From: Streptomyces ficellus
GTDB lineage: Bacteria > Actinomycetota > Actinomycetes > Streptomycetales > Streptomycetaceae
Direction of reading: 5' to 3'
NCBI RefSeq assembly: GCF_030406405.1
Contig: NZ_JAUEPL010000001.1
Location: 124,001 to 188,000, forward strand
Length of the DNA stretch: 64,000 nucleotides
The notes below the pieces were generated by a model. The model saw nothing but the letters and a program-made list of their open reading frames with translations. It was not told where the DNA came from and did no database searches. Shown in pieces: positions 7,867-60,866 of the stretch (the first letter of the stretch is position 1; each line of letters starts with the position of its first letter). A program made the position numbers and the translations under genes.

Positions 7867-7910
7867 TTGACAGTCCAAAACAGCCCAGCTACTTTCGGCC
7901 CAGGCCGAAA
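7867..7910 (+). promoter_or_regulatory. Promoter with overlapping 18-bp palindromic operator (site 1)
   Basis: TTGACA (7867-7872), a 17-nt spacer and TACTTT (7890-7895) form a good sigma-70-type promoter for the transport operon. The palindrome TTTCGGCCCAGGCCGAAA (7893-7910) overlaps the -10 element, a position typical of repression. It is one of four related sites in the locus (others at 14612, 20511 and 22110). The preceding bases 7563-7866 contain no gene. Confidence 0.8.
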
Positions 7911-7945
7911 CTGTCCAGGTTTTGACAGGCCTTCCGGAGGCCCCC

Positions 7946-9211
7946 ATGAAGACAGGTTTCAAGCGCGCCACCGTTCCTCTCGCACTCCTCACCCTCACCG
8001 CGCTGACCGCGGCCGGGTGCGCCGGCGGTGACAGCGGCTCGGGGTCGAACAAGGTCACCGTCTGGATGTACCCGGTGATCATGGATCCGAAGGCCAACGC
8101 CGCGTACTGGGACGGCATCGAAAAGGGCTTCGAGGCGGCCCACAAGGACCTCGACCTCGCCGTCGAGCAACTGCCCTGGGAGAACCGGGACCAGAAGCTC
8201 GCCACCGCGTTCGGCAGTGGCAAGGGCCCCGACGTGGTGCTGCTCGGCCCCGACCAGATCCCGCAGTTCCAGGCGAACGGCGCGGTGCAGCCGGTGGACC
8301 GGGCCATCGAAAAGGCAAGGAGCGCGTTCCGCCCGGCGGCCCTGGAAGCCATGACGCAGGACGGCAAGGTCTACGCGGCGCCGATCTACCACACCGTCAC
8401 CAGCACGCTCTACAACAAGAAACTCCTGGACAAGGCGGGGATAAAGGAACCGCCCGCCACCTGGGACGCCCTCAAGGCCGCCGCGCCGAAGCTGAAGCGG
8501 GCCGGGGTCGCGACCCTCGACTACTCCGCCAGCAACGAGGCCTCGCTCAATATGAGCTTCTACCCGCTGCTGTGGCAGGCGGGCGGCAAGGTCTTCGACG
8601 AGAGCGGCAAGAAGACCGCGTTCAGCAGCCCCGAGGGCGTCGAGGCGCTCACCTTCCTCGTCGACCTCTACAAGGCGGGCGCCGTACCGAGGTCCGCGCT
8701 GACCAACGCCAACCTCTTCACCGACCAGGCGCTGGGCAAGGAACAGGTGGCGATGGGCTACACGAACACGCCCTCCGACGCCGCCCTCGCCGAGAAGACA
8801 TGGGGGAAGGGGAACGCGATCGTCGGCCCCGCCCTCACCGGGCCCCGCAAGCAGGTCTGCTTCGGTATGCCGGGCGGCCTCGGCATCAACGCCAGGACCA
8901 AGAACCTGACCGGTGCCGAGAAATTCATCACCTATATGACCGAGCCCGCGCAGATCCGGTCCATGGGCACGGCGGGCGGGTTCTTCTCACCGCGTACGGA
9001 TGTCACCGTGCCCAACGGCAGCCCGTTCGCCAAGGAGTACGAGGCGGCTCTCGCCCACACCTTCCCCGGCGAGCCGCACCCGGCCGCCCGCCAGCTGATG
9101 GCGCTGATCACCCCCGAGATCCAGGCCGCGCTCACCGGCAAGAAGTCCCCTGAGCAGGCACTGGAGGCGGCGGCCAAGGAAGGCGACGATCTGCTGGCGC
9201 GGCAGCGTTGA
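7946..9211 (+). CDS. ABC transporter sugar-type solute-binding lipoprotein
   Basis: 421-residue extracytoplasmic binding protein of the family 1 (MalE-like) type, delivering substrate to the two permeases downstream. A lipoprotein signal is clear: the N-terminal KR, a hydrophobic stretch and the lipobox TAAGC with Cys25 as lipidation site. The body has typical features: an early VTVWMYP strand, then PDVVLLGPDQIPQF and a late GGLGINARTKN. ATG at 7946 sits 5 nt after GGAGG. It is the first gene of a six-gene operon under the operator at 7893. The ligand cannot be read from sequence; the family usually binds oligosaccharides, sugar alcohols or related polyols. Confidence 0.93.
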   Translation: MKTGFKRATVPLALLTLTALTAAGCAGGDSGSGSNKVTVWMYPVIMDPKANAAYWDGIEKGFEAAHKDLDLAVEQLPWENRDQKLATAFGSGKGPDVVLLGPDQIPQFQANGAVQPVDRAIEKARSAFRPAALEAMTQDGKVYAAPIYHTVTSTLYNKKLLDKAGIKEPPATWDALKAAAPKLKRAGVATLDYSASNEASLNMSFYPLLWQAGGKVFDESGKKTAFSSPEGVEALTFLVDLYKAGAVPRSALTNANLFTDQALGKEQVAMGYTNTPSDAALAEKTWGKGNAIVGPALTGPRKQVCFGMPGGLGINARTKNLTGAEKFITYMTEPAQIRSMGTAGGFFSPRTDVTVPNGSPFAKEYEAALAHTFPGEPHPAARQLMALITPEIQAALTGKKSPEQALEAAAKEGDDLLARQR

Positions 9212-10203
9212 GCAAGCTCGAGCCCCGCGAGACGTCCCCCGACGACGCGCTCCCCACCGCCCCGCCGGCCGCGGCACCCGCCGAGGGCGCGGCCCGGGCG
9301 GTGGCCGCGGCGGCGGCGGCCGGGAGGCGGCCCGCTCCCGCGCGGCGGCGGGAGGCGCTGGTGGGGCTGGCGTTCGTGGCGCCGATGCTCGCCCTGTTCC
9401 TCGTCTTCCGCTTCGGCCCCACGCTCGGTGCCGCGTTCCTGTCGCTCACCGACTACCGGCTCAGCGGCGAGTGGGACTTCATCGGCGCCGCCAACTACAC
9501 CCGGCTGCTGAACGACGACCTGTTCTGGGAGAGCCTCGGCGTCACCGCCGTCTACACCGCGCTGTACGTCCCCATGACGGTGCTGCTCGCGCTCGGCACC
9601 GCCGCCTTGCTGTACCGCACGCTCTGGCTGCGCGGCTTCTTCCGGGGCCTGTTCTTCCTGCCGTACGTCACCAGCATCGTCCTCGCCGCGGTCATCTGGA
9701 AGTGGATCTACGAGGTGGAGGACGGACTGCTGAACTCCACCCTCGGCGCCCTCGGCCTCGGAGAGATCGACTTCCTCGGCAACGAGTCCCTCGTCCTGCC
9801 GTCCATCGCCGCCGCCTCGGCCTGGAAGGGCTTCGGCTACTCCATGCTGATCCTCCTCGCCGGGCTCCAGTCCATCCCCCGGGAGGTCACCGAGGCCGCC
9901 ACCATCGACGGCGCGAGCGCCTGGCAGCGCTTCCGCTGGGTGACCCTGCCCCTCCTGCGCCCGGTGCTCTTCTTCGTCCTGGTCATCGAGGCGATCCAGG
10001 CCTTCCAGGTCTTCGACGCCATGTACGTGATGACCGCCGGCGGGCCGGTCAGGGCCAGCTACTCCCTCGTGTACTTCCTCTACGACTCCGGCTTCAAGTT
10101 CTTCGACTTCGGCTACGCCAGCGCGGTGGGCCTGGTCCTCTTCCTCGTCGTGCTCGTCTTCTCGCTCATCCAGCGCCGGCTCATCGGAAGGGAGGAGGAC
10201 TGA
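9208..10203 (+). CDS. ABC transporter permease (MalF-like, CUT1)
   Basis: 331 residues. A 45-residue Ala/Pro-rich cytoplasmic N-terminus precedes about six transmembrane helices, starting at VGLAFVAPMLALFLVFRFGP. The EAA loop that contacts the ATPase is visible as REVTEAATIDGASAWQRFRWVTLP. The start is an unusual TTG that overlaps the stop of the binding protein (TTGA), implying tight translational coupling. No ATP-binding subunit is encoded in the locus; in Streptomyces such importers commonly share the multitask ATPase MsiK, which is presumably the case here. Confidence 0.92.
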   Translation: MSKLEPRETSPDDALPTAPPAAAPAEGAARAVAAAAAAGRRPAPARRREALVGLAFVAPMLALFLVFRFGPTLGAAFLSLTDYRLSGEWDFIGAANYTRLLNDDLFWESLGVTAVYTALYVPMTVLLALGTAALLYRTLWLRGFFRGLFFLPYVTSIVLAAVIWKWIYEVEDGLLNSTLGALGLGEIDFLGNESLVLPSIAAASAWKGFGYSMLILLAGLQSIPREVTEAATIDGASAWQRFRWVTLPLLRPVLFFVLVIEAIQAFQVFDAMYVMTAGGPVRASYSLVYFLYDSGFKFFDFGYASAVGLVLFLVVLVFSLIQRRLIGREED

Positions 10204-11006
10204 TGGCGCGGCTGAGGCTGGGGGTCCTGCTGGGCCTGGTCGCGTTCGTGACCGTCACGCCCTTCGTCATCATGGTGCTGGTGGCCTTCGCGCCGCCCGG
10301 CGGCAAGACGCTGCCGGGCGCCCTCGACCTGACCCGGGCCACCTGGCGGAACTTCTCCGACGTCCTCCAGAGCGCCGACATCACGCGCTGGGCGATGAAC
10401 TCCCTGATCTACTCGCTGGTGTCGGTGCTGCTCATCCTGCTGTTCGCGTCGATGGCCGGGTACGCGTTCGCCAAGAAGCGGTTCCCGGGCCGCGAGGTGC
10501 TGTTCTGGTCATTCCTGGCGACGCTGATGGTGCCGTTCCAGGCCACGCTCATCCCGTACTACATCCTCGTCTCGGAACTGGGCGGCGTGGACACGTACTG
10601 GGGCCTGATCGTGCCGACCCTCGCCAATTCCCAGGCCGTCTTCCTGATGCGGCAGTTCATCGTGCAGCTGCCCGACGAGCTGTTCGAGGCGGCGAAGATC
10701 GACGGTGCGTCGGAGTGGCGGGTGTTCACCACGATCGTGCTCCCCCTGATCCGGCCGGTCCTCGCCACGCTCGGCGTGTTCGTCTTCCTGTGGCACTGGA
10801 ACGACTTCCTGTGGCCCCTGGTCATCGGCCAGTCGGAGGGCATGCGCACGCTCACCGTGGGGCTCGCCACGCTGGAGGGCGAGAACGTGACCATCAACCA
10901 GATCATGGCCGGAGCCACCATCACCGTCGTCCCCTGCCTGCTCGTCTTCGGGCTGCTGCAGCGGTACCTGACCGATTCCATCGCCACCAGCGGCCTGAAG
11001 TCATGA
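10203..11006 (+). CDS. ABC transporter permease (MalG-like, CUT1)
   Basis: 267 residues, second membrane subunit of the importer. Transmembrane helices are evident from residue 6 (LGVLLGLVAFVTVTPFVIMVLV) to the C-terminus. The conserved EAA loop is ELFEAAKIDGASEWRVFTTIVLP, and the protein ends in the usual LTDSIATSGLKS-type tail. The ATG overlaps the upstream permease stop by one base (TGATG) and its own stop overlaps the next gene (ATGA). Confidence 0.93.
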   Translation: MARLRLGVLLGLVAFVTVTPFVIMVLVAFAPPGGKTLPGALDLTRATWRNFSDVLQSADITRWAMNSLIYSLVSVLLILLFASMAGYAFAKKRFPGREVLFWSFLATLMVPFQATLIPYYILVSELGGVDTYWGLIVPTLANSQAVFLMRQFIVQLPDELFEAAKIDGASEWRVFTTIVLPLIRPVLATLGVFVFLWHWNDFLWPLVIGQSEGMRTLTVGLATLEGENVTINQIMAGATITVVPCLLVFGLLQRYLTDSIATSGLKS

Positions 11007-11710
11007 CCGTGGTCGTCGACGTGAACCGGATGCTCGGCCCCCTCCCCCACGACGACGTCCCCAGCCGGGACGAGACGGGGCTGCTCGCGGAGCTGGAGCG
11101 GCTGCGGATCGACACGGCGTGCGTCAGCCACGCGTACGCCGTCCACGGCGACCCGCGCGACGGGAACGGACAGCTCGGGCTGATCGGCGACCGGCGGCTG
11201 CTCCCCGTACCCGTCCTCGTGCCCGGCCCCCTCGGCACCGGCCGGTGGACGGGCGGCGCCCCGCTGGCGCGCCTGTGCCCCCGGCTCCACGGCTGGTCCC
11301 CCACCGGCCCGCACGCCCGGGGACTGCTCGCCGAGCTGGCCGCGAGCGGCACCACCGTGCTGCTCGCCCGCGACGAGGTGACGGCGGCCGAGGTGCGTGT
11401 GCTGGCCGCCGCCGCGCCGGCGCCGCGCATCGTCCTGACCGGCACCGGCTACCGCGCGCTGCGCGAACTGGCCGAGCTGCTGGAGACCCACCCTTCCCTG
11501 TACGTCGACACCTCCACCCTCTGCGGCCACCGCCAGGTGGAGTGGCTCGCCGAGCGGTACGGCGCCCACCGCGTGCTGTTCGGGACGGGCGCCCCCGTCA
11601 CGGACGACGCCGGCCCGCGTCACCTGCTGGACACCCTCGACCTGCCCGGCGCCGACGTGGCGCTCATCGCCGGCGGCAACGCGCTGCGGCTGCTGGGCGG
11701 TGAGCCATGA
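11003..11710 (+). CDS. Amidohydrolase-superfamily protein with degenerate metal site (set A)
   Basis: 235 residues of the short TIM-barrel amidohydrolase family (COG2159-like) that have lost the metal ligands. Where the canonical neighbour has DAHGH, this protein has DVNRM (residues 6-10). The C-terminal GSDA/GTDA aspartate is replaced by glycine (FGTGAP, Gly196). The overall strand order and the late YGAHRVLFGTG motif are still recognisable. ATGA overlaps on both sides place it between the permease and the canonical amidohydrolase at 11707. The consistent loss suggests a non-catalytic partner subunit or a new activity; this is inference. Its closest structural counterpart in the window is the gene at 18602-19360. 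Confidence 0.78.
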   Translation: MTVVVDVNRMLGPLPHDDVPSRDETGLLAELERLRIDTACVSHAYAVHGDPRDGNGQLGLIGDRRLLPVPVLVPGPLGTGRWTGGAPLARLCPRLHGWSPTGPHARGLLAELAASGTTVLLARDEVTAAEVRVLAAAAPAPRIVLTGTGYRALRELAELLETHPSLYVDTSTLCGHRQVEWLAERYGAHRVLFGTGAPVTDDAGPRHLLDTLDLPGADVALIAGGNALRLLGGEP

Positions 11711-12471
11711 GCCGCGCCATGGACGTCATCGACGCGCACGGGCACATCGGCCGGTGGTCCGCGTTCGCCATCACGGACGGCTCGGCGGAGAGCCTGGTCG
11801 CGATGATGGACCGGTGCGGGGTCGCCACCGCGTGCGTGTCGCACCTGCTGGCGGTCGGGCCCGACGCGCGCGCCGGCAACGCCCTGCTCCTCCAGGCCCT
11901 CCAGGCCCACCCCGGCCGGCTGCTCGGCTACGCCGTGTACCAGCCGCACGACCCGCAAGGCCCCGAACGGCTGCGGGACCTGCTGGACGCGCCCGGCGTC
12001 ATCGGCGTCAAGCTCCACCCCGAGGTGCACGAGACGGCGCTCGACGACCGCGCGTACACGCCCGCGTTCGAGGCGGCCGCCGAGCGGCGGCGGATCGTCC
12101 TGGCACACAGCCAGCACGGCAGCCCCTGGTCCGACGCCCGGCACTTCGCGACCGTCTCGCCCCGCCACCCCGGCGTACCTCTGCTCATGGGCCACGCGGG
12201 GCTGTTCCCCCAGGGGTTCCGCCCGGCCGTGGAGGCGGCGGAACGCTGCCCCGACCTCATCCTGGAGACCTGCGGCTCGCGTATGACGGCACGTCACCTG
12301 GTGCGGATGGTCGCCGAGGCCGGAGCGGACCGGGTCGCGTTCGGCTCGGACGCCGTCTTCCTGGACCTGCGGACCGGGCTCGGCCGGGTGCTGCTCGCCG
12401 GCCTTCCGGAGCCGGACCGGGAGCAGGTGCTGCACGGCACCATGGACCGGCTGCTGAAGGGCATCGTGTGA
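11707..12471 (+). CDS. Metal-dependent amidohydrolase, canonical (set A)
   Basis: 254 residues of the amidohydrolase superfamily with a complete metal site: D9-A-H11-G-H13, lysine in GVKLHP (102), His134, His163 in MGHAG and Asp215 in FGSDA. Family members hydrolyse lactones or amides or decarboxylate ring acids, so a lactonase or ring-opening step is plausible. It overlaps the degenerate paralogue upstream (ATGA) and abuts the DegT-like gene downstream. Its nearest relative in the window is the gene at 17844-18602. No signal peptide, so cytoplasmic. Confidence 0.86.
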   Translation: MSRAMDVIDAHGHIGRWSAFAITDGSAESLVAMMDRCGVATACVSHLLAVGPDARAGNALLLQALQAHPGRLLGYAVYQPHDPQGPERLRDLLDAPGVIGVKLHPEVHETALDDRAYTPAFEAAAERRRIVLAHSQHGSPWSDARHFATVSPRHPGVPLLMGHAGLFPQGFRPAVEAAERCPDLILETCGSRMTARHLVRMVAEAGADRVAFGSDAVFLDLRTGLGRVLLAGLPEPDREQVLHGTMDRLLKGIV

Positions 12472-13595
12472 ACCGGCCGCCGCGGTGGCCCGCGTGGCCG
12501 CCACCCCCGACCGACGAGCAGCGCCGCGCCCTGCTGGCGGTCCTGGACAGCGGGCGGTGGGGCGCCACCAGCGGCACGGCGACGGAGGAGTTCGCGGCGG
12601 CGTTCGCGCGGCGCACCGGGGCCGCCCACGGGGTGTGCACCGCGAACGGCACCGTCGCGCTGTTCCTGGCGCTTCGCGCCCTGGGCGTCGGCCCCGGCGA
12701 CGAGGTGATCGTGCCCGCGTACACCTTCGTGGCGAGCGCCACGGCCGTGGTGCTGGCCGGGGCGGTGCCGGTCGCCGCCGACGTCACCGAGGACACGCTG
12801 CACCTGGACCCGGCGGCCGTGCGCCCGCTCGTCGGTCCGCGTACGAAGGCCGTCATGGCGGTGCATCTGGCCGGGGCGCCCGCGGACGTGGAGGCGCTGC
12901 GCGGTGCGGGGCTCCCCGTGGTGGAGGACGCGGCGCAGGCGCACGGCGCCGCGCGGCACGGCCGCCCGGCGGGGTCGCTGGGGGACGTGGCCTGCTTCAG
13001 CTTCCAGTCGAGCAAGGCGATGACGGCCGGGGAGGGCGGCATCGTCGTCATGGGCGATCATGCCCTGTACGAGCGCGTGTGGTCCCTGCACAACGTCGGG
13101 CGCCGCCCCGGCGGAGGCTGGTACGACCATCCGGAGCTGGGCTGGAACCTGCGGATGACCGAATTCCAGGCGGCGCTGCTGCGCCCTCAGCTCGCGCTGC
13201 TGGACGGCTGGATCGACCGCCGTGCCCGCGCTGCCGCCGCGCTCGCCGAGGCCCTCGGCGCCGTGCCGGGCCTGGACCTCCTCCCCGCACCGTCCGGCAC
13301 GACCCGGCACACCTGGCACCTGGCGATGCTGCGGTACGACTCCGGGGCCTTCGGCGGCCGCCCCGTGTCGGCGTTCCTGGCCGCGATGGCCGCCGAAGGC
13401 GTGCCGCTGGACGCCGGTTACCGCTCGCTGAGCCAGCTGCCGTACGTGCGGGCCCCCGTGCCGTGTCCGGTGGCGCAAGCGGCGCGGGAGAGCGTGGTGT
13501 GGGTGCGGCAGCCGCTGCTGATGGCCGGCGAGGCCGCCATGGCGTACATCGGCCGTGCCGCGCTCGCCGTGCGACGGGCGGTCACGCCGAGGTGA
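12468..13595 (+). CDS. DegT/DnrJ/EryC1/StrS-family PLP enzyme (set A)
   Basis: 375 residues of the sugar-aminotransferase fold-type I PLP family. The Schiff-base lysine is K183 in FSFQSSKAMTAGEGG. The ring-nitrogen aspartate is D154 in VVEDAAQAHGA, and GTVALFLALRALGVGPGDEV is the usual cofactor-phosphate region. Enzymes of this family transaminate keto-sugars or keto-cyclitols; in a catabolic setting the reverse direction (deamination of an aminosugar or aminocyclitol) is equally possible. The GTG start at 12468 overlaps the previous stop by 4 nt. Its 3' end overlaps the convergent oxidoreductase gene by 14 bp. No glycosyltransferase or nucleotide-sugar gene is nearby, which argues against antibiotic sugar biosynthesis. 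Confidence 0.9.
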   Translation: MNRPPRWPAWPPPPTDEQRRALLAVLDSGRWGATSGTATEEFAAAFARRTGAAHGVCTANGTVALFLALRALGVGPGDEVIVPAYTFVASATAVVLAGAVPVAADVTEDTLHLDPAAVRPLVGPRTKAVMAVHLAGAPADVEALRGAGLPVVEDAAQAHGAARHGRPAGSLGDVACFSFQSSKAMTAGEGGIVVMGDHALYERVWSLHNVGRRPGGGWYDHPELGWNLRMTEFQAALLRPQLALLDGWIDRRARAAAALAEALGAVPGLDLLPAPSGTTRHTWHLAMLRYDSGAFGGRPVSAFLAAMAAEGVPLDAGYRSLSQLPYVRAPVPCPVAQAARESVVWVRQPLLMAGEAAMAYIGRAALAVRRAVTPR

Positions 13596-14553
13596 GCGCG
13601 CCGAACGTCTCGATCGCGCGCAGGGCGTCCGCCTGCGGCATGCCGGGCGGCTGGACGCGCAGGATCAGCCCGTCGGCGCCCATCTGCGCGTACCGGCCGA
13701 TCCTCTCCGCGCACTCGGCGGTGGAGCCGATGACGGACCGGGCGGCGATGGCGTCCCACGGCTGGGCGTAGCGGGCGGCGTCGGCGGAGGTGCGCTTCCA
13801 GTCGCCGTACGCGTCGTACAGCTCCCGCAGCGGGCCCTCCAGGGCGGTGCGGGCCTCGGCGGTGGTGGGCGCGGCGTACCCCTCGCGGCAGATGATGACC
13901 TCGGCGCCGAGCGAGCGCGGGCCGCGCGGGAAGGACCGGTAGAGGGCGATCTTCTCGGGGAGTTCCTCGTCGGTCTCGTTGAAGGACGTCGTCCAGCCGT
14001 CGCACGCCCAGGCGGTCCGCTCCAGGGCGGCGGCGACGCGGCCGCCGTTCCAGATGCGGGGGCGGGGCCTTTGGACCGGCCGGGGCGAGAGGAAGGCGTC
14101 CTCGACCCGGTGCCGGCGGCCTTCGTGGGTGACCTCGTCCTCGGTCCACAGCCGGGTGACCAGCTCCAGGCACTCCTCGAACCGCGATACGCGCTCCTGG
14201 GGCCGGACGCCGTACAGCGCGAACTCCTCGGGGCGGTAGCCGAGGACGAAACCCGCGGTGAGGCGGCCGCCTGACAGGACGTCGATGTGGGCGAGGGTCT
14301 CGGCGAGCCACACCGGGTGGTGCACGGGGGCGATCAGCCCGGCGGTCGCCAGGCCGATCCGGTCGGTGTGCGCGGCCAGGTACGCCAGGGAGGTGATGGC
14401 CTCGTGGTAGCCGGGCCGGTGCAGGTGCCGTTCGCCCAGGACGGCCCAGGAGAAGCCGGCCTGTTCGGCGAGGCGGACCTGCTCGACGGCGTCGGCGAGG
14501 CGGGGCCGGTCGGCCTTGTCCGCGTAGAGGTTGACATACAGGCCGAGTCGCAT
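13582..14553 (-). CDS. LLM-class flavin-dependent oxidoreductase
   Basis: 323 residues of the bacterial luciferase-like monooxygenase family. The N-terminal strand is MRLGLYVNLYADKADRPRL. It has the AEQAGFSWAVLGERHLH region, AHIDVLSGGRLTAGFVLGYRPEEF (flavin/F420 phosphate region) and the C-terminal IGSTAECAERIGRYAQMGADGLIL motif. Whether FMN or F420 is used cannot be told. ATG at 14553 is preferred over an upstream in-frame start because similarity begins there. It is divergent from the lyase gene at 14674, sharing the palindrome at 14611, and converges on the set A PLP enzyme. A redox step on the imported compound is the likely role. Confidence 0.88.
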   Translation of the reverse strand: MRLGLYVNLYADKADRPRLADAVEQVRLAEQAGFSWAVLGERHLHRPGYHEAITSLAYLAAHTDRIGLATAGLIAPVHHPVWLAETLAHIDVLSGGRLTAGFVLGYRPEEFALYGVRPQERVSRFEECLELVTRLWTEDEVTHEGRRHRVEDAFLSPRPVQRPRPRIWNGGRVAAALERTAWACDGWTTSFNETDEELPEKIALYRSFPRGPRSLGAEVIICREGYAAPTTAEARTALEGPLRELYDAYGDWKRTSADAARYAQPWDAIAARSVIGSTAECAERIGRYAQMGADGLILRVQPPGMPQADALRAIETFGALTSA

Positions 14554-14610: not shown

Positions 14611-14630
14611 TTTACGGTCCGGACCGTAAA
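14611..14630. promoter_or_regulatory. Perfect 20-bp palindromic operator (site 2)
   Basis: TTTACGGTCCGGACCGTAAA is a perfect palindrome in the 120-bp divergent gap between the oxidoreductase (start 14553) and the lyase (start 14674). Its core matches sites 1, 3 and 4. A 13-bp unit, CACGGGCTTCCTT, is tandemly duplicated directly beside it (14587-14612). Confidence 0.82.
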
Positions 14631-15712: not shown

Positions 15713-17809
15713 TCAGTTGGCCAGCAAGCCCTTCAGGACGGCCTCGTACTGCGCGGTGATCTCCGCGGGCAACCCGGACGGGCACAGCGGGTCGAGCCGC
15801 AGCCGGGCCAGGTCACGCGTGGCCACGCCCCACGCGTGCCAGGTGGCCCGCTCCCAGGCCAGTTGCGGCGGGTTGTACCAGCCGTCGCCCAGGCCGCCGA
15901 GTACGAGCTGGGCGTCGTCGCTCCCCGGTCCGAGCCGGTAGACCGAGCCGCCGAACACCGAGGCGTACACCTGCCCGAAGTGGACGCTGATCTCGCCGTA
16001 GCTGGGGAGCTTGCCGGTCTTGATGACCGTCCTGCTCTCCAGGTCCATGGCGAACCAGGTGCCCGAGCGGCGCTTGTAGAGGCCGTACAGGATGCCGTCG
16101 TGCACCTCGATGTGCTGGATGCTGGCGTGGCCCTCGATGGGGGTCGCCTCCCACAGCACCGTACGGCGCCGCAGGTCGAAGGCGACGACGGTGGCGTGCG
16201 GCCGGGCGGGGGTCACGCTGCCGCCGCCCCAGGTGTCCCCGGCGAGGTAGGCGGTGCGGTGGCCGACCCGGTCGTCGAGCGCCACGGACATCACGCTCTG
16301 GTCGGTGATGACGTCCTTGTGGACGGTGAGCCGTCCACGGGAGCGCTCCACCAGGGTGAGGGCGCCCTTGAGGCCGCCGGCCGGCGGCGCGCTGGCCACC
16401 AGCAGCAGATCCTGTTCGGGTACGTACGCCATGTCGGTGGGGCGTTGCTGGTCGTTGTCGATGAAGCCCATCGAGCGGATCTTGCCGCGGCGGGGGTCGA
16501 TCTCCAGGAACTCGGTGCTGGGGTACATCGCCGCGTACACCCGGCCGCCGACCACCCGGAGCTGCTTGGGCTCGCCGGGGATCCTGATGCGCTTGGACGT
16601 GCCGTGCGAAGGCCGGTGGGTCGTCAGCGAGTAGTGCCCGCCGACGTGGACGGTGCCGCCCGCCTGGTACGCGATGGACTGGACCGGGTCGGGTCCGGAC
16701 AGGCCGATGTCGATGAGCTCCACGATCTCGGACTTCTTGGTGGGCAGGTCGAGCCACCACAGCCGGCCGCTGCCGACTGCGCCGAGCATGGTGTTCTTGC
16801 CGAGCGGGATGAGGGCGCGGTGTTCGTCGCCGGTGGCGGGTGCGGCGACCGCGACGAGCCGGTCGCCCTCGCGCCGGTAGACGGTGCCGGTGGGCCGGCC
16901 GACGCAGTAGAGGGCGCCATCGGGCATCACCGTGATGGCGTCGGCGATGCGTTCCGCGGCGGGGATCATGATCGCGCGGGCGTCGCTGCCGTCGGGGGCC
17001 AGGTCGACGATGGTCCTGCCGAGGGAGCCGAGTACCCGGCCGCCGTGCGCGAGGAGGGCGGCCGCGCCGCCGTACGGGGTGGGGGTGATGTTGCGCTTGG
17101 CTCCGGTGGCGCGGTCGTACGCGATGACGTAGCCGCGCGGGAGGGTGCCGGCGTAGACGTAGCGGTCGTCGGCGGCGATGGCGCGGACGTACTGCTCGCC
17201 GGCCATGGCGGCGCCGAGGTTGCGCAACGTGCCGGTCTGGGGCTTGTACTCCCAGACCTCGCCGCGCGGGTGGGTGCCCGCGTACACGGTTCCGTCGGGG
17301 GCGGTGGCGAGGCACCAGACGAAGCCGCCGGCCGGGCCGATGGTGCCGATGCGGGTGACGGTGCCGGTGGCGGGGTCGATGCGGTGGATGTCGGGGAAGG
17401 GGTAGGACCCGATGTAGACGTGGCCGCCGGAGACGGTCGCCGCCCAGCCGCCGTCGCCGCGGGTGAGCCGGAAGGATCTGGTGAGCTTTCTGGTCGTCAG
17501 GTCGATCTCGCCGACGCGGGTGGGGTTCTGGCCGCGGGCGACCACATAGGCGTGGTTGCCCAGCACGGTCGTACCGACGATCGCCGCGGTCAGGGACGCG
17601 ACGCCGTACGTGGAGACCGGCTCACCGGAGCAGCGGTGCCCGGCCTCCACCGTGCCGGTGGCCTCGGCGGTGCCGGTGGTGTCCACCGCTCCTGTCGCTC
17701 GCGCCGTGCCTGCTGCGGCGGCGTTCGCCGCGCTCGGGCTGATGGTCTGTCCCGCCACCGCCGCCAGGGTGAATCCGGCTCCGGCGTTGAGCAGTCGCCT
17801 GCGTTCCAT
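15713..17809 (-). CDS. Exported beta-propeller protein (PQQ/SMP-30-like repeats)
   Basis: 698 residues. The N-terminus (MERRRLLNAGAGFTLAAVAG) has a twin-arginine-like RRRLL followed by a hydrophobic stretch and an Ala-rich cleavage region, so export, possibly by Tat, is likely. The rest is beta-propeller repeats of the type GGHVYIGSYPFPDIHRIDP, DGTVYAGTHPRGEVWEYKP and GRVYAAMYPSTEFLEIDP. No catalytic signature is recognised. It is the last gene of the four-gene minus-strand operon (20481 to 15713), 34 nt behind the canonical amidohydrolase. A role as extracellular lyase, lactonase or sensor for the imported compound is inference only. Confidence 0.78.
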   Translation of the reverse strand: MERRRLLNAGAGFTLAAVAGQTISPSAANAAAAGTARATGAVDTTGTAEATGTVEAGHRCSGEPVSTYGVASLTAAIVGTTVLGNHAYVVARGQNPTRVGEIDLTTRKLTRSFRLTRGDGGWAATVSGGHVYIGSYPFPDIHRIDPATGTVTRIGTIGPAGGFVWCLATAPDGTVYAGTHPRGEVWEYKPQTGTLRNLGAAMAGEQYVRAIAADDRYVYAGTLPRGYVIAYDRATGAKRNITPTPYGGAAALLAHGGRVLGSLGRTIVDLAPDGSDARAIMIPAAERIADAITVMPDGALYCVGRPTGTVYRREGDRLVAVAAPATGDEHRALIPLGKNTMLGAVGSGRLWWLDLPTKKSEIVELIDIGLSGPDPVQSIAYQAGGTVHVGGHYSLTTHRPSHGTSKRIRIPGEPKQLRVVGGRVYAAMYPSTEFLEIDPRRGKIRSMGFIDNDQQRPTDMAYVPEQDLLLVASAPPAGGLKGALTLVERSRGRLTVHKDVITDQSVMSVALDDRVGHRTAYLAGDTWGGGSVTPARPHATVVAFDLRRRTVLWEATPIEGHASIQHIEVHDGILYGLYKRRSGTWFAMDLESRTVIKTGKLPSYGEISVHFGQVYASVFGGSVYRLGPGSDDAQLVLGGLGDGWYNPPQLAWERATWHAWGVATRDLARLRLDPLCPSGLPAEITAQYEAVLKGLLAN

Positions 17810-17843
17810 ACGTCCCTCTCCTGTTCTGGAGGTTCGGATCGCT

Positions 17844-18602
17844 TCACATGTGCGGCGGGAGGTCCGTGCCGACCTTCAGGCCGAACAGCTCCGCCGCGTT
17901 GCGCCACAGCACTCGCTCCAGCTCTTCCTCCGTGAACCGCGCGTCCCGGATCACGCCCAGGGACACGCAGGGGTCGATCAGCGTCGCGTCCGTGCCGAAC
18001 AGCAGCCGCTCGACGGGGACTCCGGCCTCGCGCGCGTACGCGACGCGGCCCGCGTCCGTCGCCGTACGGCAGTGCTCCAGGTAGAGGCGGTCGCAGGCGG
18101 CCGCGGCGTGGGCGGCCTCGCGCCAGGCGTCACCGCCCGCGTGGCCCATGATCACCCGCAGCCCCGGCCGGGCCTCCACCAGCTCGGGCAGGAGGGTGAC
18201 CTCGCGCCCCCAGGTGTGCAGCAGCAGCGGTACGCCGGCCTCGGCGACCACGTCGAAGGCCTCGGCCATCTCACGGCAGCCGGGCAGCCGTCCCGGATAG
18301 TGGGTGTGGATCTTGGCTCCGACGAACCGGCCGGTGTCCAGGCAGCGGCGGAGGTCGGCGGCGCTCTCCTCGATGCGGTTGGGGTTGACGACGGCGTACC
18401 CGTACAGCCGGGGGCGGCTCTCCAGCGCCTCGCGCAGTGCCGCGTTGCCCGCGACCGCGTCGTACACGACGGCTTCCGACGCCGACACGATCTGGAGGTC
18501 GATGCCGTACCGGTCCATCTGGGCGAGGTTGGTGTCGGCGTCACCGGTCGTCAGGTGGAACTGCCAGCGGCCCACATGGGCGTGCACATCGATGATCGGC
18601 AT
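17844..18602 (-). CDS. Metal-dependent amidohydrolase, canonical (set B)
   Basis: 252-residue amidohydrolase with an intact site: D5-V-H7-A-H9, lysine 97 in GAKIHTHYPG, His129 in LLLHTWG, His154 in MGHAG and Asp205 in FGTDA. The alignment to the set A canonical enzyme is clear through the DxHxHxGRW and GNA-LLxAL-RLxGYAV regions. Its ATG shares one base with the stop of the degenerate partner (TGATG). Likely cytoplasmic lactonase or decarboxylase-type hydrolase in the same pathway. Confidence 0.86.
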   Translation of the reverse strand: MPIIDVHAHVGRWQFHLTTGDADTNLAQMDRYGIDLQIVSASEAVVYDAVAGNAALREALESRPRLYGYAVVNPNRIEESAADLRRCLDTGRFVGAKIHTHYPGRLPGCREMAEAFDVVAEAGVPLLLHTWGREVTLLPELVEARPGLRVIMGHAGGDAWREAAHAAAACDRLYLEHCRTATDAGRVAYAREAGVPVERLLFGTDATLIDPCVSLGVIRDARFTEEELERVLWRNAAELFGLKVGTDLPPHM

Positions 18603-19360
18603 CAGGCGAGCAGCTCCTCGACATTCTTGGTGGCGATGGCGGCGCGGGCGTCGGGTGGGATGTCGGCGTAGCGCAGTTTCAGCGTCTGGGGCGAGATGTC
18701 CATGAACGGGGTGCGCGAGCCGAAGACGAGGTGGCGCGGGCCGACCGCGTCGATGACCCGCTCGATGGAGTCGGGACCGGACAGCATGCGGGTGGTGGCC
18801 TTGAACCCGGGCTCCTCGCGGGCCAGGAGGAGGAAGTCGGCCAGCAGGTAGGCGTGCAGGTCGAGGAAGATGACATCGGCTCCCCGGCCGGTCAGCGGCG
18901 GGCCGAAGCGGCGCGGGTCGCCGTCGTGCAGGAGCACCATCCCGCGGTCGATCGCCAGCTTCACCACGTGGCGGTAGCCGGGGAAGCCGGGCTCGGCGGC
19001 CTGTTCGCAGGTGAACAGCCGCAGGAACCGCACTCCCGCGGCGGTCAGTTCGTCCAGCCGGTCCTCAGCCGTCATCGCGTCCCGTACGTCAACGGTGCCG
19101 ACCGGCAGCAGTTCGGGGCAGTCGGCGAGGTCGCGCAGCGTCTCGGCGTTGCCGGCGGCGTCGTCGAAGAGCGGCCCGCGCGTGGAGAGCGCGAGGGCGC
19201 CGGCGACGGGAGAACGGCGCAGATGGGCCCGTACGCCGTCGAGGTGGATGTCGCGGTGGTGGCGGGGCCATGGCCCGTACATCACGTCCACGTCCCAGCC
19301 GATGTGCTCCTCGGCGGACGGCTGAAGCCATGCGTACGTCTCGTGCGGCGACACGCTCAT
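18602..19360 (-). CDS. Amidohydrolase-superfamily protein with degenerate metal site (set B)
   Basis: 252 residues. It has DVDVMYGPWP (residues 23-32) where the active family has DxHxH, and FGSRTPFM with Arg216 in place of the conserved aspartate. The DVxxMxGPxP pattern is shared with the set A degenerate protein (DVNRMLGPLP), so loss of the ligands is ancestral, not recent decay. The C-terminus (IPPDARAAIATKNVEELL) is the usual amidohydrolase end. The ATG overlaps the stop of the set B PLP enzyme (ATGA). Probably an obligate partner of the canonical amidohydrolase immediately downstream. Confidence 0.77.
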   Translation of the reverse strand: MSVSPHETYAWLQPSAEEHIGWDVDVMYGPWPRHHRDIHLDGVRAHLRRSPVAGALALSTRGPLFDDAAGNAETLRDLADCPELLPVGTVDVRDAMTAEDRLDELTAAGVRFLRLFTCEQAAEPGFPGYRHVVKLAIDRGMVLLHDGDPRRFGPPLTGRGADVIFLDLHAYLLADFLLLAREEPGFKATTRMLSGPDSIERVIDAVGPRHLVFGSRTPFMDISPQTLKLRYADIPPDARAAIATKNVEELLA

Positions 19361-20481
19361 GATGTGGCGACCTTCCCCAGCGCCTGCGCGATCCGGTCCA
19401 CGTCGTCCTCGCTGTAGCCCTCGTTCCACGGCAGAACCAGCAACGTACGGCCGATGAGCCGCTCGGCGCGAGGACACAGGCCCGGCGGGTAGCCCGACAG
19501 TGCCGGATTGGCGTACAGCGGCCGCTCCAGATAGCCGGGCAGGGCGGGCACGCCCCGCTCCTCCAGTCCGCGCGCCCAGCGGGTGTTGTCGTCGACGAGG
19601 AGCGGGACGACCCACCAGGCGTGGCCGGTACGCCGCTGAGGGACCGTCACCCCGGGCAGCCCGCCGACGGCCTCGATGAGGCGCCGCGCGCTCGCGCGGC
19701 GGCGGGCGACGACGCCCGCGACCCGGGTGAGCTGGACGCGGGCGACCGCGGCGACCAGTTCCGTCATGCGGTAGTTGAGGCCCATGGTGCGGTGGATACG
19801 GCCCTCGGCGCGGTCCCAGCCCTTGTCCATGAACAGCCGCATACGGGTGGCGAGGGACGGATCGTCGGTGAGGGTGAGGCCGCCGTCGCCCGCGGTGATG
19901 TGCTTGTACTGCTGGAGGCTGAAGCAGGCGATGTCCCCGGTGGTCCCGAGCAGCCGGCCGGCCTCGTCCTCGCCGAGCCAGGCCTGGGCGCAGTCCTCGA
20001 TGAGCAGCAGCCCGTGCCGGTCGCAGATCTCCCTCAGCCGTACGGTGTCGGCGGCGCCGCCGAAGAGGTGGACGGCGATGACGGCCTTGGTGCGCGGGGT
20101 GACGGCCGCCTCGACGGCGTCGGGGTCGAGGTTGCCGTCGTCCTCGCGTACGTCGGCGAAGACGACCCGGCCGCCCTGGGCGACGACGGGCGCGACGGTG
20201 CCGAAGTCGGAGATGGGGGTGGTGATGACCTCGTCGCCGGGGCCGACTCCGGCGGCGGCCACGGCGAGGTGGAGGGCGGCGGTGCCGGAACTGCACGAGA
20301 CGGCCTCGGCGCGCCCGTACAACTGGGCCATTTCGGCCTCCAGCGCCCGGGCCTCGTGGCCGAACGCGCCGCACAGGACGGCCGAGTCCAGGACCCGGAG
20401 CACCGCCACGCGTTCCTCCTCGCCGAATGTCCTTCCCCGTGGGTCGAGAACTGTGGGCAGCGGCATTTCCCGTTGCGGCAT
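19357..20481 (-). CDS. DegT/DnrJ/EryC1/StrS-family PLP enzyme (set B)
   Basis: 374 residues. PLP lysine K193 lies in ACFSLQQYKHITAGDGG and D163 in LLIEDCAQAWLG; SCSSGTAALHLAVAAAGVGPGDEV is the phosphate-binding segment. It differs clearly from the set A enzyme in the substrate-facing regions, so the two probably act on different keto or amino positions or on different partners. ATG at 20481 is chosen because it follows the operator-promoter at 20511-20554 with a normal leader; an upstream in-frame start would lie inside the operator. First gene of the operon PLP enzyme, degenerate amidohydrolase, canonical amidohydrolase, beta-propeller. Confidence 0.9.
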   Translation of the reverse strand: MPQREMPLPTVLDPRGRTFGEEERVAVLRVLDSAVLCGAFGHEARALEAEMAQLYGRAEAVSCSSGTAALHLAVAAAGVGPGDEVITTPISDFGTVAPVVAQGGRVVFADVREDDGNLDPDAVEAAVTPRTKAVIAVHLFGGAADTVRLREICDRHGLLLIEDCAQAWLGEDEAGRLLGTTGDIACFSLQQYKHITAGDGGLTLTDDPSLATRMRLFMDKGWDRAEGRIHRTMGLNYRMTELVAAVARVQLTRVAGVVARRRASARRLIEAVGGLPGVTVPQRRTGHAWWVVPLLVDDNTRWARGLEERGVPALPGYLERPLYANPALSGYPPGLCPRAERLIGRTLLVLPWNEGYSEDDVDRIAQALGKVATS

Positions 20482-20510
20482 CGGGGGATTATCCTCTCGG
20501 CAGCACGCGA

Positions 20511-20554
20511 TTATGGCCTGGGCCGAAAGTAGAACCCCCATCGGCGGCCGTCAA
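20511..20554 (-). promoter_or_regulatory. Promoter with overlapping operator (site 3)
   Basis: Read on the minus strand, TTGACG (20554-20549), a 17-nt spacer and TACTTT (20531-20526) give the same promoter geometry as at 7867. The operator TTATGGCCTGGGCCGAAA (plus-strand 20511-20528) overlaps the -10 in the same register as site 1; CTACTTTCGGCCCAGGCC is identical in both. One half-site is weaker (TTATGGCC). Confidence 0.8.
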
Positions 20555-20619
20555 TCAGGCGTAACGCAGGCGTCACCCCGCACACGGGAACGGGCACTTC
20601 AGCACAGAGTGCCGGGGCA

Positions 20620-20693: not shown

Positions 20694-20769
20694 TGTGTCA
20701 CTTCGGGGCGTCAGTCCGGCGCGCCGGCAGAGCACTTCAGTGGAATGTCCAGCAGAACGGAGACCGGCC

Positions 20770-22023
20770 ATGCCGCTCACGGTCGGCGTGATAGGTCCCG
20801 AGGACCTGGTCCACAAGGTTGTCGCGGTCGGCGGCCAGGCGGCCGGACCCGCCCGGCTGCTGCCCCTGCCGTACCGTCACGAGGACGAGACCACCGACCT
20901 CGTGACCGGTGCCCGGTCGCGGGCGGACGCGCTGCTGTTCACCGGCGTCGTCCCGCACACGCTGGCGGGCGCCGCCGGGGTGCTGGACCGCCCGGCGATG
21001 TACGTGCCGTACAACGGCGCCACCCTGCTGCGGGCGCTGGTCGAACTGCTGCGGCTCGGGCACGACGTGGCCCGCGTCTCCATCGACACGCTCCGCCGCG
21101 ACGAGGTGCTGGAGACGATGGCGGAGGCGAAGTTGCCCACCGACCGGGTGCGGGTGCTGCCGTACCGGCCGGGGCTCACCTCGCAGGAGATCGTGGACTT
21201 CCACCTGGAGGCCCGTGACAGCAAGAAGACCAGGGTGGCCATCACCTGTCTCGGCTCGGCGTACCACGTGCTGGAGCAGCAGACGCACGCGGTGCGGCTC
21301 GCACCGTCCCGGCACTCGATACTGGCGACCCTTCAGGCGCTGGTCCTGACCACGGCGGGGCAGCACAGCGGGGACGCGCAGGTGGCGCTGGGCATCATCG
21401 ACCTGCCGGGCGCGGACGCGCGGCTGGCGGAGGACATACGGGTGCTCGGTGGCAGTCTGGCCGAGCTGCCCGATGGGCGGCGGCTGGTGGTGACGACGCG
21501 CGGGGTGCTGGAGACGGTGACAGAGCGATTCACTTGTATCCCGTTCCTCGACGGCCTCGCGTCCCGGCACGGCACCGCGCATGTCGGGTTCGGCCTGGGG
21601 CGTACGGCGGCCGAGGCGGAGGCCCTCGCCCGGCGGGCCGTCAACCGGGCGCGCTCGGTGGGCGCGGCGGCGGGCGTGGTCTCCATGGCGGACGACGTCG
21701 ACCTGGTCATCGCGGCCGGCGGGACCGGGGCGGCGGCCGATGCTGACGCCGGTGCCGAGCCGGCCGCGCCGGAGAGCCCCGCACTGCTGGCCCGCCGCGC
21801 CGGGCTGCACCCGCACACCCTCGACCGGCTGCGGGAACTGGCCGCGGCGGACGGGGGCGCAGGCGTCACCGCCCACCTCGTGGCCGAGCACCTGTCCGTG
21901 CAGCAGCGCACCGCCCGCCGCATCCTCAAGCGCCTGGAGCGGGCGGGCGTCGCCGTACCGACCGGGAGTCGTCAGGACGGGCGGACCGGCCGCCCTCCCA
22001 CCGTCTACCGGGTCCATCTGTAG
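20770..22023 (+). CDS. Putative transcriptional regulator with C-terminal winged HTH
   Basis: 417 residues. The C-terminal 75 residues look like a winged helix-turn-helix: HPHTLDRLRELAAA, then VTAHLVAEHLSVQQRTARRILKRLERAG and a basic RQDGRTGRPPTVYRV wing. The N-terminal 200 residues (starting MPLTVGVIGPEDLVHKVV) resemble a ligand-binding alpha/beta domain. The middle segment with GTAHVGFGLGRTAAEAEALARRAVNRAR is like a degenerate GGDEF or GTP-cyclohydrolase-type domain. It is the only regulator in the locus and sits centrally between operator sites 3 and 4, so it is the best candidate for binding the 18-bp palindrome. ATG at 20770 follows a weak purine-rich RBS. I cannot name the family with certainty. 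Confidence 0.72.
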   Translation: MPLTVGVIGPEDLVHKVVAVGGQAAGPARLLPLPYRHEDETTDLVTGARSRADALLFTGVVPHTLAGAAGVLDRPAMYVPYNGATLLRALVELLRLGHDVARVSIDTLRRDEVLETMAEAKLPTDRVRVLPYRPGLTSQEIVDFHLEARDSKKTRVAITCLGSAYHVLEQQTHAVRLAPSRHSILATLQALVLTTAGQHSGDAQVALGIIDLPGADARLAEDIRVLGGSLAELPDGRRLVVTTRGVLETVTERFTCIPFLDGLASRHGTAHVGFGLGRTAAEAEALARRAVNRARSVGAAAGVVSMADDVDLVIAAGGTGAAADADAGAEPAAPESPALLARRAGLHPHTLDRLRELAAADGGAGVTAHLVAEHLSVQQRTARRILKRLERAGVAVPTGSRQDGRTGRPPTVYRVHL

Positions 22024-22109
22024 CCCGCGGCCGACCGGTTACGCCGCGGTCCGTCCGCGGTCCGTCCCTGGTCCTTTCCTGGTCCGTCCCTGGTCCGCGG
22101 CCGTTCCCG

Positions 22110-22127
22110 TTACGGCCCGGGCCGAAA
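22110..22127. promoter_or_regulatory. Palindromic operator (site 4)
   Basis: TTACGGCCCGGGCCGAAA lies 52 bp upstream of the enolase-superfamily gene and differs from a perfect palindrome at one pair. It shares the consensus TTWCGGYC-CR-GRCCGWAA with sites 1 and 2. No convincing -35/-10 was identified around it. Confidence 0.8.
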
Positions 22128-22178
22128 CCCCGACACCGCAACCGCCACCCCCCACGGCGGAGACGAAGGAGCTCGCGC

Positions 22179-23279
22179 GTGAGAATCGCCTCGTTCCACA
22201 CCCATGTCGTCCGTGCCCGCTATCGCCGCCCGTTCGCCATCAGCAGCGGCAGCAGCACCGACCTTGTCAGCCTCCTCGTGGAGGTCCGGACGGCCGATGG
22301 GGCGTCCGGTTTCGGCGAGGCGTCGCCGATGACCGCGTACACCGGCGAGACCCTGGCCGGGCTGTGCGCGGCGGTGACCGACCATGTCGGGCCGGCGCTC
22401 GTCGGCCGTGACCCGCGCGACCTGACGGGCGCCCATGCCGCCATGGACGCCGCGATCCGGGGCCAGCACCTGGCCAAGGCGGCGCTCGACCTGGCGTTGC
22501 ACGACCTCGCGGCGGGCGCCGCCGGGTGGCCCGCGCACCTGCTGCTGGGCGGCGGGGCGACGGGCGGGCCGGTGCCGACGACCTGGGTGGTGGGGCTGGG
22601 CACGCTCGACGAGATGGCGGAGGAGGCCGCCCGGTACGCGGCGGCCGGCTTCCCGCACATCAAGCTCAAGGGCGGTGAGGACCCGGCGCTCGACGTCGAG
22701 CTGGTCGCCGCCGTGCGCAAGGCGGTCCCCGAGTCGGTCGAGCTGTCGCTGGACGCCAACGAGGGGTACGCGCCGGGCGGCGCCGCCCGCACCGTCGCCC
22801 GCCTCGCGGACGCCGGGCTGGACCTGGTGGAGCAGCCGCTGCCGCGCTGGGACCTGGACGGGCTGGCGGCGCTGCGCGCGCACGGCGGGGTACGGGTCAT
22901 GGTGGACGAGTCGGTGCAGTCGGCGCACGACGCGCTGGAGGTGGTGCGCCGGGGCGCCGCCGACGTACTCAACATCAAGATCCTGAAGGTGGGCGGGCTG
23001 TACCGGGCGCGGCAGATCGCGGCTCTCGCCCAGACCGCGGGCCTCGCGGTGAAGGTCGGCACGATGCCGGAGCTGGGGGTGGCGACCCTCGCGGCCGCGC
23101 ACCTGTCGGCCGCGCTGCCCCACGCCACGGTTCCGCCGGACCTGGTGGGGCCGCTGCTCGTCGACGAGGAGCCGCTCGCCCCGGCGGCGTTCGCGGACAC
23201 ACCGGGGACGGGCCGGGTGCAGCTGCCGGTCGCGCCGGGCCTGGGCCATGGGCTGCGTGCGGGGGCGTCGTTGAGGTGA
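22179..23279 (+). CDS. Enolase-superfamily enzyme, muconate-cycloisomerase subgroup
   Basis: 366 residues with all catalytic elements of the MLE subgroup: K162-L-K164 (HIKLKGG), metal ligands D192 (LSLDANEG), E218 (LVEQPL) and D243 (VMVDES), and the second acid/base lysine K267 (LNIKILKVGG). This subgroup includes muconate cycloisomerase, dipeptide epimerase, N-acylamino-acid racemase and o-succinylbenzoate synthase; all begin by abstracting a proton next to a carboxylate. The GTG start at 22179 follows GAAGGAG with good spacing. An epimerase or cycloisomerase acting on an acid intermediate of this locus is the best reading. Confidence 0.88.
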   Translation: MRIASFHTHVVRARYRRPFAISSGSSTDLVSLLVEVRTADGASGFGEASPMTAYTGETLAGLCAAVTDHVGPALVGRDPRDLTGAHAAMDAAIRGQHLAKAALDLALHDLAAGAAGWPAHLLLGGGATGGPVPTTWVVGLGTLDEMAEEAARYAAAGFPHIKLKGGEDPALDVELVAAVRKAVPESVELSLDANEGYAPGGAARTVARLADAGLDLVEQPLPRWDLDGLAALRAHGGVRVMVDESVQSAHDALEVVRRGAADVLNIKILKVGGLYRARQIAALAQTAGLAVKVGTMPELGVATLAAAHLSAALPHATVPPDLVGPLLVDEEPLAPAAFADTPGTGRVQLPVAPGLGHGLRAGASLR

Positions 23280-23286
23280 CCACACG

Positions 23287-23321
23287 GAACGGCCCGCCCC
23301 CTTCCGCGGGACGGGCCGTTC
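23287..23321. terminator. Stem-loop terminator after the enolase-superfamily gene
   Basis: GAACGGCCCG (23287-23296) pairs perfectly with CGGGCCGTTC (23312-23321) across a 15-nt loop. It lies between the stop at 23279 and the convergent gene ending at 23379 and probably serves both. There is no long T tract, as is common in Streptomyces. Confidence 0.8.
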
Positions 23322-60865: not shown

Positions 60866-60866
60866 C

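Follow-up and report, generated by a model that had tools for sequence, protein, structure and literature searches.

Introduction

What does a compact group of import, enzyme and regulatory genes in Streptomyces ficellus accomplish, and are these genes controlled as one system? The group lies at positions 7867-23321 of a 64,000-nucleotide stretch of the 6.3 Mb host genome (the window; contig NZ_JAUEPL010000001.1, positions 124,001 to 188,000 of the forward strand), where 14 genes in six units, as read from gene order and strand, encode a CUT1-type importer, two aminotransferases, two pairs of amidohydrolases, further enzymes and a regulator, here termed REG. A single predicted regulon under one operator is strongly supported, with REG itself tied to it only via a shared divergent site. 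The genes probably constitute a catabolic regulon for the uptake and breakdown of an amino-sugar or keto-sugar compound, perhaps a uronate, under the control of a repressor. With one regulator, one operator and a binding protein suited to ligand screening, the locus offers tractable access to a carbon and nitrogen pathway.

The operator and the layout of the locus

The 18 bp palindrome TTWCGGYCCRGRCCGWAA is located at positions 7893-7910, 14612-14629, 20511-20528 and 22110-22127. When up to three mismatches were allowed, nine strand matches were found in the window against 0.32 expected, a number reached by none of 100 shuffles; eight of them fall at the four operator places and one lies inside the regulator gene at 21588. 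Across the host genome, matches with at most one mismatch (better strand) are confined to the four operator places, while at most two mismatches gave 11 strand matches at six places, the two extra places each having two mismatches. A reversed-motif control at up to two mismatches gave one forward and one reverse match in the host genome. The four copies claimed in the original prediction were therefore confirmed by the window and genome motif searches, and its proposal of a self-contained regulon is strongly supported by the rarity of the operator in the genome together with the sites in relatives described below. The features of the locus are as follows.

7867-7910, plus strand: promoter-like element TTGACA-17 bp-TACTTT, overlapped by operator 1, TTTCGGCCCAGGCCGAAA, at 7893-7910 (by eye and alignment)
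7946-9211, plus strand: CUT1 solute-binding lipoprotein (SBP), SBP_bac_1 (Pfam)
9208-10203, plus strand: ABC permease 1, BPD_transp_1 (Pfam)
10203-11006, plus strand: ABC permease 2, BPD_transp_1 (Pfam)
11003-11710, plus strand: AH1a, degenerate PF04909 amidohydrolase (Pfam and ligand-column alignment)
11707-12471, plus strand: AH1b, intact PF04909 metal-dependent amidohydrolase (Pfam and ligand-column alignment)
12468-13595, plus strand: DegT1, pyridoxal phosphate (PLP) aminotransferase (Pfam; nearest solved relative AHBA synthase)
13582-14553, minus strand: LLM-class flavin/F420 oxidoreductase (Pfam PF00296)
14612-14629, no strand: operator 2, TTACGGTCCGGACCGTAA, between the divergent LLM and DHDPS-like genes (motif search)
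14674-15705, plus strand: DHDPS/NAL-superfamily lyase with Schiff-base Lys (Pfam and alignment)
15713-17809, minus strand: exported beta-propeller-like protein of no functional family (twin-Arg-like N-terminus by eye)
17844-18602, minus strand: AH2b, intact PF04909 amidohydrolase (Pfam and alignment)
18602-19360, minus strand: AH2a, degenerate PF04909-like partner, with a PF04909 score below the Pfam cut-off (alignment)
19357-20541, minus strand: DegT2, PLP aminotransferase, with a likely start at 20481, downstream of operator 3 (Pfam)
20511-20528, no strand: operator 3, TTTCGGCCCAGGCCATAA on the minus strand, overlapping the -10-like TACTTT of DegT2 (motif search)
20770-22023, plus strand: regulator REG, with a sensor fold (1-200), a candidate GGDEF-like middle domain (by topology) and a winged helix (337-417) (structure model)
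22110-22127, no strand: operator 4, TTACGGCCCGGGCCGAAA, before the MLE gene (motif search)
22179-23279, plus strand: MLE-subgroup enolase-superfamily enzyme (Pfam and alignment)
23278-23330, plus strand: strong hairpin at the right end (folding z -4.88)

Unit 1 (7946-13595, plus) holds six genes, namely those of the lipoprotein, the two permeases, AH1a, AH1b and DegT1. The LLM oxidoreductase (13582-14553, minus) and the DHDPS-like lyase (14674-15705, plus) stand alone as units 2 and 3; unit 4 (20481/20541-15713, minus) holds the four genes for DegT2, AH2a, AH2b and the exported propeller; units 5 and 6 are the genes of REG (20770-22023, plus) and the MLE-type enzyme (22179-23279, plus). Earlier, 12 genes in five units had been described, with one regulator gene; the sole regulator was right and the gene families were confirmed by Pfam, but the true count is 14 genes in six units. 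The palindrome had also been placed before four of the five units then described. Operator 1 sits 36 bp ahead of the solute-binding protein gene, one palindrome is common to the divergent LLM/DHDPS-like pair, and directly upstream of the regulator gene no palindrome was found, the closest, at 20511, being 242 bp away. A terminator had been placed at the right end; the hairpin at 23278-23330 is real (-35.2 kcal/mol), although it is followed by a poor T tail and is absent from the output of the terminator scan.

For the window and four relatives, an alignment was made of the promoters of SBP and DegT2. All ten sequences, from five genomes, follow the pattern TTGAC-17/18 bp-TA(C/G)TTT, and in all ten the operator begins inside the second hexamer. 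The promoter assignment rests on this conservation because a consensus promoter scan found no site. An operator overlapping a -10-like hexamer would have the geometry typical of a repressor.

The operator and the gene set in other genomes

Twelve hand-chosen REG-carrying genomes were searched for exact copies of a looser form of the operator, TTWCGGNCNNGNCCGWAA. The search gave 29 exact palindromes in nine of these genomes (24 in loci of the gene set, two before the gene of an exported barrel enzyme and three elsewhere), and the reversed control gave no matches in any of the 12. A wider scan of named genomes covered 70 loci with 18 labels. Because these loci were selected by REG and several of them end at contig edges, their counts are conditional and some of them are minimum values; 29 of the loci are from Kribbella and 18 from Streptomyces, and the counts from such close relatives are not independent. 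Genes in relatives were called with a scoring script rather than a published gene finder, and names marked below as given by eye were read from the sequences. These loci contain 145 sites with at most one mismatch, 139 outside called genes and six inside, a count that carries no shuffle control. The genes within 300 bp downstream of the sites encode the propeller (34), LLM (30), MLE (24), SBP (23), DegT (22), DHDPS-like (20), REG (20) and c14 (9) proteins, with 21 others. The putative operator TTWCGGNCNNGNCCGWAA is thus seen to mark candidate promoters of the gene set and few other places.

Besides REG, 67 of the 70 loci hold one or more other families of the set or any of c12, c14 and Gfo/Idh, where c12 denotes a DHDPS-like protein, as judged from its HTTQF motif (the one scanned had no Pfam match), and c14 an NAD-dependent epimerase. 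The individual counts are 45 for the DHDPS-like protein, 40 for DegT, 37 for the propeller (two clusters), 35 each for AHa and AHb, 34 for permease 2, 32 for MLE, 31 each for permease 1 and LLM, 30 for SBP, 15 for c12, 13 for c14, eight for AH1a and seven for Gfo/Idh. In Nonomuraea, both DegT/amidohydrolase operons, the importer, REG and c12/c14 occur in one stretch.

Kribbella capetownensis and K. pittospori have the gene set split over several loci. The first holds the propeller and importer with LLM, MLE, the DHDPS-like lyase and REG, and the second holds a second REG, the propeller, DegT2, AHa and AHb; roughly 11-13 kb from the latter, on one contig, lie SBP, AH1a, AHb and DegT1 without permeases, and a further locus encodes a 524-residue exported protein. 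Every part has an operator; the copies of the second-REG operon and ahead of the first SBP carry one mismatch and the others are exact. The predicted operator on these split parts argues more strongly for a regulon than mere adjacency would. Scattered, unlinked genes in related genomes had been named beforehand as the outcome that would speak against the proposal; instead, the genes are linked in many loci and the split Kribbella parts keep the operator.

The lower part of the pathway appears to vary. LLM/MLE genes were present in 33 of the 70 REG loci (L027-L096), c12/c14 genes in 15, both in none and neither in 22, and the two groups, which also differ in genus, may be alternative lower branches of one pathway. 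The c12 gene (for example L058:8920-9945 and L095:1215-2291) often occurs with an epimerase gene, in several phyla. The c12 protein, absent from the window, matched 20 plasmid records; in the stretches of ten of these, ABC importers, Gfo/Idh, sugar isomerase or serine ammonia-lyase genes are near some copies, the Nonomuraea record being unannotated. These neighborhoods are suggestive, not decisive. AH2a and AH2b each matched one plasmid record (Nonomuraea), the DHDPS-like protein matched two (Nonomuraea and Prescottella) and the exported barrel protein matched none.

The regulator

REG has 417 residues, and its AlphaFold model has a pLDDT of 87.3 and a pTM of 0.51. Residues 1-200 form a two-lobed domain; in a fold comparison that used residues 1-201 only, it matched 2q5c with Z 18.0 and PrpR (2pju) with Z 17.6 over 183 residues, and the next-best fold match had Z 11.9; in Foldseek the match to PrpR sensor domains had E 2.8e-07. 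From its strand order, read by eye, the middle domain (205-316) is a candidate GGDEF-like domain of the CdaR type; a winged helix (337-417) ends the chain. PrpR, the NtrC-family propionate regulator, has an N-terminal sensor fold like that of REG; unlike PrpR, REG ends in a winged helix and has no visible sigma54 AAA+ domain (no Pfam match at E<=10), and its sequence is 8-10% identical to 2q5c and 2pju. The sensor part of REG (P0013) likewise had no Pfam match at E<=10, including none to PrpR_N, and no NCBIfam match; the sensor parts of two relatives from the class of Bacillus sp. M6-12 had no NCBIfam match, and for the other 20 members of the REG alignment the matches listed were to the 25 commonest of 62 weakly matching Pfam families. 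According to the model, members of the family carry a winged helix C-terminal to a PrpR-type sensor fold. The locus exposes a regulator family whose sensor is unmatched by Pfam and NCBIfam in the members examined.

Counting the host, REG was found in six of 297 genomes of the family (E<=1e-20) and two of 396 genomes of the phylum (E<=1e-25). In the class of Bacillus sp. M6-12 it was found in 126 of 398 genomes (E<=1e-20), often in several copies per genome (L103-L151).

Importer and enzymes

The importer comprises an SBP_bac_1 binding protein and two BPD_transp_1 permeases. It shares the order of lipoprotein and two permeases with CUT1 (MalEFG-type) importers but, unlike them, is encoded without an ATPase gene in the locus. 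The nearest solved relatives of the binding protein are binders of maltose, trehalose and acarbose, among them GacH. The propeller protein gave only low-scoring matches, largely to propellers, in a PDB profile search.

Both aminotransferases match PF01041, and the PLP lysine is present in 55 of 55 members. The closest solved relatives of DegT1 are AHBA synthase (223 bits), followed by 2-deoxy-scyllo-inosose and sugar aminotransferases, while those of DegT2 are sugar aminotransferases such as perosamine synthetase. DegT1 and DegT2 share the PLP lysine with these enzymes; no NCBIfam cut-off was reached for DegT equivalogs (PseC, LegC, ArnB-type and others) among 22 families for DegT1 and the best 25 of 26 for DegT2, and, unlike their solved relatives, the two are encoded here with amidohydrolase pairs and, for one of them, in an import operon. 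More generally, no NCBIfam cut-off was reached among the matches listed for the ten window proteins scanned.

The relatives of DegT1 bear on two other explanations. In the first, the substrate is an aminocyclitol, namely an inosamine, valienamine or an aminoglycoside fragment, as would suit AHBA synthase and the 2-deoxy-scyllo-inosose aminotransferases as best solved relatives, the resemblance of the binding protein to the acarbose/maltose binder GacH among others, and the Gfo/Idh and xylose-isomerase-like TIM-barrel genes of some relatives. These two families also hold inositol enzymes; however, both are absent among the 14 window genes, and the other linked genes point to uronate or amino-sugar polymers, so that an aminocyclitol is an improbable substrate. 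Mycosporine degradation was considered owing to the cyclitol and serine hints and was dropped, as the open-licence literature searched gave no support. In the second explanation the locus would serve to make an amino-sugar natural product and not to break a compound down. Antibiotic clusters often contain DegT and LLM enzymes, DegT1 has AHBA synthase as its best solved match, and in five Streptomyces-type loci the MLE gene is followed by one for a FUSC-type membrane protein, which may be an exporter. A dedicated importer, an operator that overlaps the promoters and an aldolase-type lyase are nevertheless present, and no NRPS, PKS or glycosyltransferase was found in the 20 representative neighbor families scanned, which are not all of the neighbors; a biosynthetic role is therefore very improbable.

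The duplication of the amidohydrolase sets had been recognized correctly, but the loss of metal ligands from one member of each pair had not been seen. The PF04909 metal site (HxH, His, His, Asp) is complete in AH1b and AH2b and broken in AH1a and AH2a, such that each of the two DegT operons here pairs an intact amidohydrolase with a degenerate one. All 50 AHb-type proteins keep the HxH and both further His residues, and 49 of the 50 keep the Asp, the exception having a gap there. When the columns of the degenerate proteins were read from distant relatives aligned to one AHb reference, AHa-type (AH2a) proteins had the first His replaced by Asp, the second by Leu/Met and the Asp by Arg in 40 of 40 cases each, and AH1a had the metal-ligand Asp replaced by Gly in 11 of 11 (window member included), with the first His retained in four of the 11. 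AHb shares the full metal ligands and profile matches with other PF04909 amidohydrolases (gamma-resorcylate decarboxylase, ACMSD and 3cjp); unlike these, it has a degenerate partner in its operon, twice in this locus. The recurrent intact and degenerate proteins may form a hetero-oligomer.

The LLM protein matches PF00296 and scores 158.4 bits with the LLM F420 subfamily model TIGR03619, below the cut-off of 166.9. The lyase shares the fold family and Schiff-base Lys of the DHDPS/NAL superfamily (DapA, NanA and YagE), the Lys being present in 50 of 51 members with Glu in the exception, but it has HTGRG in place of the canonical GxTGE-type motif. In the MLE-type enzyme the KxK, K and three metal ligands (D/E/D) are conserved in 38 of 38 members. 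It shares the catalytic Lys and metal ligands of the muconate cycloisomerase/N-acylamino acid racemase subgroup; its best NCBIfam model is muconate cycloisomerase TIGR02534, at 221.9 bits, below the cut-off of 334.95, and its best solved match is a dipeptide epimerase.

Proposed mechanism and substrate

In the proposed catabolic regulon, REG would bind the operator as a repressor, overlapping the -10-like hexamer of two promoters, and would release it when a substrate or intermediate of the pathway binds the sensor domain. The lipoprotein and two permeases would import an oligosaccharide or monosaccharide containing an amino-sugar or keto-sugar, on whose ring the two DegT aminotransferases would swap amino and keto groups. 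The metal-dependent amidohydrolases would then hydrolyze or decarboxylate the product, with the degenerate partner as a regulatory or structural subunit, while the LLM enzyme would carry out a flavin/F420 redox step and the MLE-type enzyme would take the alpha-proton off a carboxylate (to epimerize, dehydrate or cycloisomerize it). Finally, the DHDPS/NAL-type lyase would cleave a 2-keto-3-deoxy-type acid to central metabolites. Lactone hydrolysis, epimerization and retro-aldol cleavage are family-level guesses. The uptake and stepwise conversion of an amino-sugar or keto-sugar put forward in the original prediction fits the CUT1 importer, the DegT relatives and the linked carbohydrate genes, while the substrate and the order of the steps are still inference.

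Linked carbohydrate enzymes in relatives narrow the substrate. The exported Kribbella protein mentioned above (L180:6846-8420) was modeled as an (alpha/alpha)6-type barrel (pLDDT 85.2), which matched GH76 at Z 23.7 and cellobiose 2-epimerase at Z 22.9; its relatives occur in eight of 345 genomes of the class. Among 14 loci around such relatives, of which the neighbors were read in eight, heparinase II/III occurs with AH1a and/or AHb in three (L207, L208 and L210), GlcNAc 2-epimerase, PIG-L and a heparinase C-domain occur with DegT and the propeller in L204, and GH123 occurs with the propeller in L203. Heparinase II/III genes are also present in the REG loci of Paenibacillus vini (L095) and of another genome of that class (L133), and near the REG homologue of genome G515 are NagA-like (165.4 bits, below the cut-off of 225.65), NagB-like, mannitol-dehydrogenase-family and enolase-superfamily genes. 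The barrel family (L180 and L188-L202) appears by eye to be Tat-type exported and had no Pfam match above the cut-off.

The surroundings of REG in the class of Bacillus sp. M6-12 are mixed. Among 20 loci picked by hand from the matches listed, some contain heparinase II/III, c12, c14, a CUT1 importer, Gfo/Idh, a sugar isomerase or a DHDPS-like gene; others contain, by eye, D-aminoacylase-like, beta-lactamase-like and amino-acid transport genes, and others again M20, N-carbamoylase-like and SSS-transporter-like genes. Some REG copies of that class adjoin amidase-like or D-amino-acid genes (names by eye). Such neighbors raise the alternative that the substrate is an amino-acid-containing compound (N-acyl, D-amino acid or a conjugate) rather than a sugar. 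The D-aminoacylase-like, M20 and N-carbamoylase-like genes would suit such a compound, as would a D-serine ammonia-lyase in a Bacillus locus that scores above its cut-off, an L-serine dehydratase in Nocardia REG loci, and the N-acylamino acid racemases and dipeptide epimerase among the relatives of the MLE protein; serine ammonia-lyases also lie near c12/c14 in two plasmid records. The importer, however, is of the CUT1 sugar type, most solved relatives of DegT1 and DegT2 are aminotransferases for sugars or cyclitols, linked carbohydrate-active genes occur in several lineages, and the best NCBIfam model of the MLE gene, albeit below its cut-off, is muconate cycloisomerase. An amino-acid-type substrate is accordingly considered unlikely.

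Several observations nevertheless weigh against the breakdown of an amino-sugar or keto-sugar under a repressor. REG itself does not imply sugar, given its amino-acid-type neighbors in the Bacillus-class loci, which include D-aminoacylase-like, N-carbamoylase-like or amino-acid transport genes and, in one Bacillus REG locus, the D-serine ammonia-lyase. Repression, as opposed to activation, is suggested by the position of the site alone. No importer ATPase gene was found among the 14 genes, the rest of the genome not having been searched for MsiK, the shared importer ATPase of Streptomyces; the importer probably uses a shared ATPase such as MsiK. Three of the exact operator sites adjoin genes without evident relation (L182, L185 and L186), and three of the 12 genomes (Micromonospora, Virgisporangium and Jiangella) have no exact site; their REG proteins are 46-48% identical, and their loci hold operator sites at one mismatch. 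The barrel gene is tied to the Kribbella regulon by the operator alone, and Foldseek gave its product weak E-values (4.5e-04 for the best GH76 match) and ranked an unrelated sheath protein first. In the host genome, a domain search found no heparinase II/III domain, and the exported barrel enzyme had no match at E<=1e-15; the link to a polysaccharide is therefore guilt by association in other genera.

The components of the locus belong to known families. Their combination, as predicted here, was not met in the open-licence literature searched, nor were the operator, the architecture of the regulator or the intact and degenerate amidohydrolase pairs. A full-text search of open-licence PMC articles found no described equivalent system, which is not proof of novelty. 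It is tentatively proposed, as one possibility, that the locus represents a previously undescribed actinomycete route for an extracellular glycan of the amino-sugar/uronate type, in which two DegT enzymes and the amidohydrolase pairs replace the phosphorylated amino-sugar pathway, under a new class of regulator (PrpR-type sensor and winged helix); other genera and Paenibacillus-type bacteria would then use a different lower branch.

Flanking genes

To the right of the locus, at 23379-25565, is a gene for a secreted trypsin-like protease (by eye) with degenerate internal repeats, for example four of 68 nt at spacings of 222, 195 and 408. At 43072-44586, two open reading frames resemble by eye the N-terminal and C-terminal parts of one GH1 beta-glucosidase and adjoin GH3-like and rhamnosidase-like genes; either the gene is interrupted or the gene caller split it. 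An apparent region of aromatic or phenolic catabolism (by eye) extends over 51872-62573, with genes for a Rieske oxygenase, a ferredoxin reductase, an MFS protein, an SDR protein and a hydroxyacyl-CoA dehydrogenase, as well as sulfatase-like, cyclase-like, BKACE-like and IclR genes.

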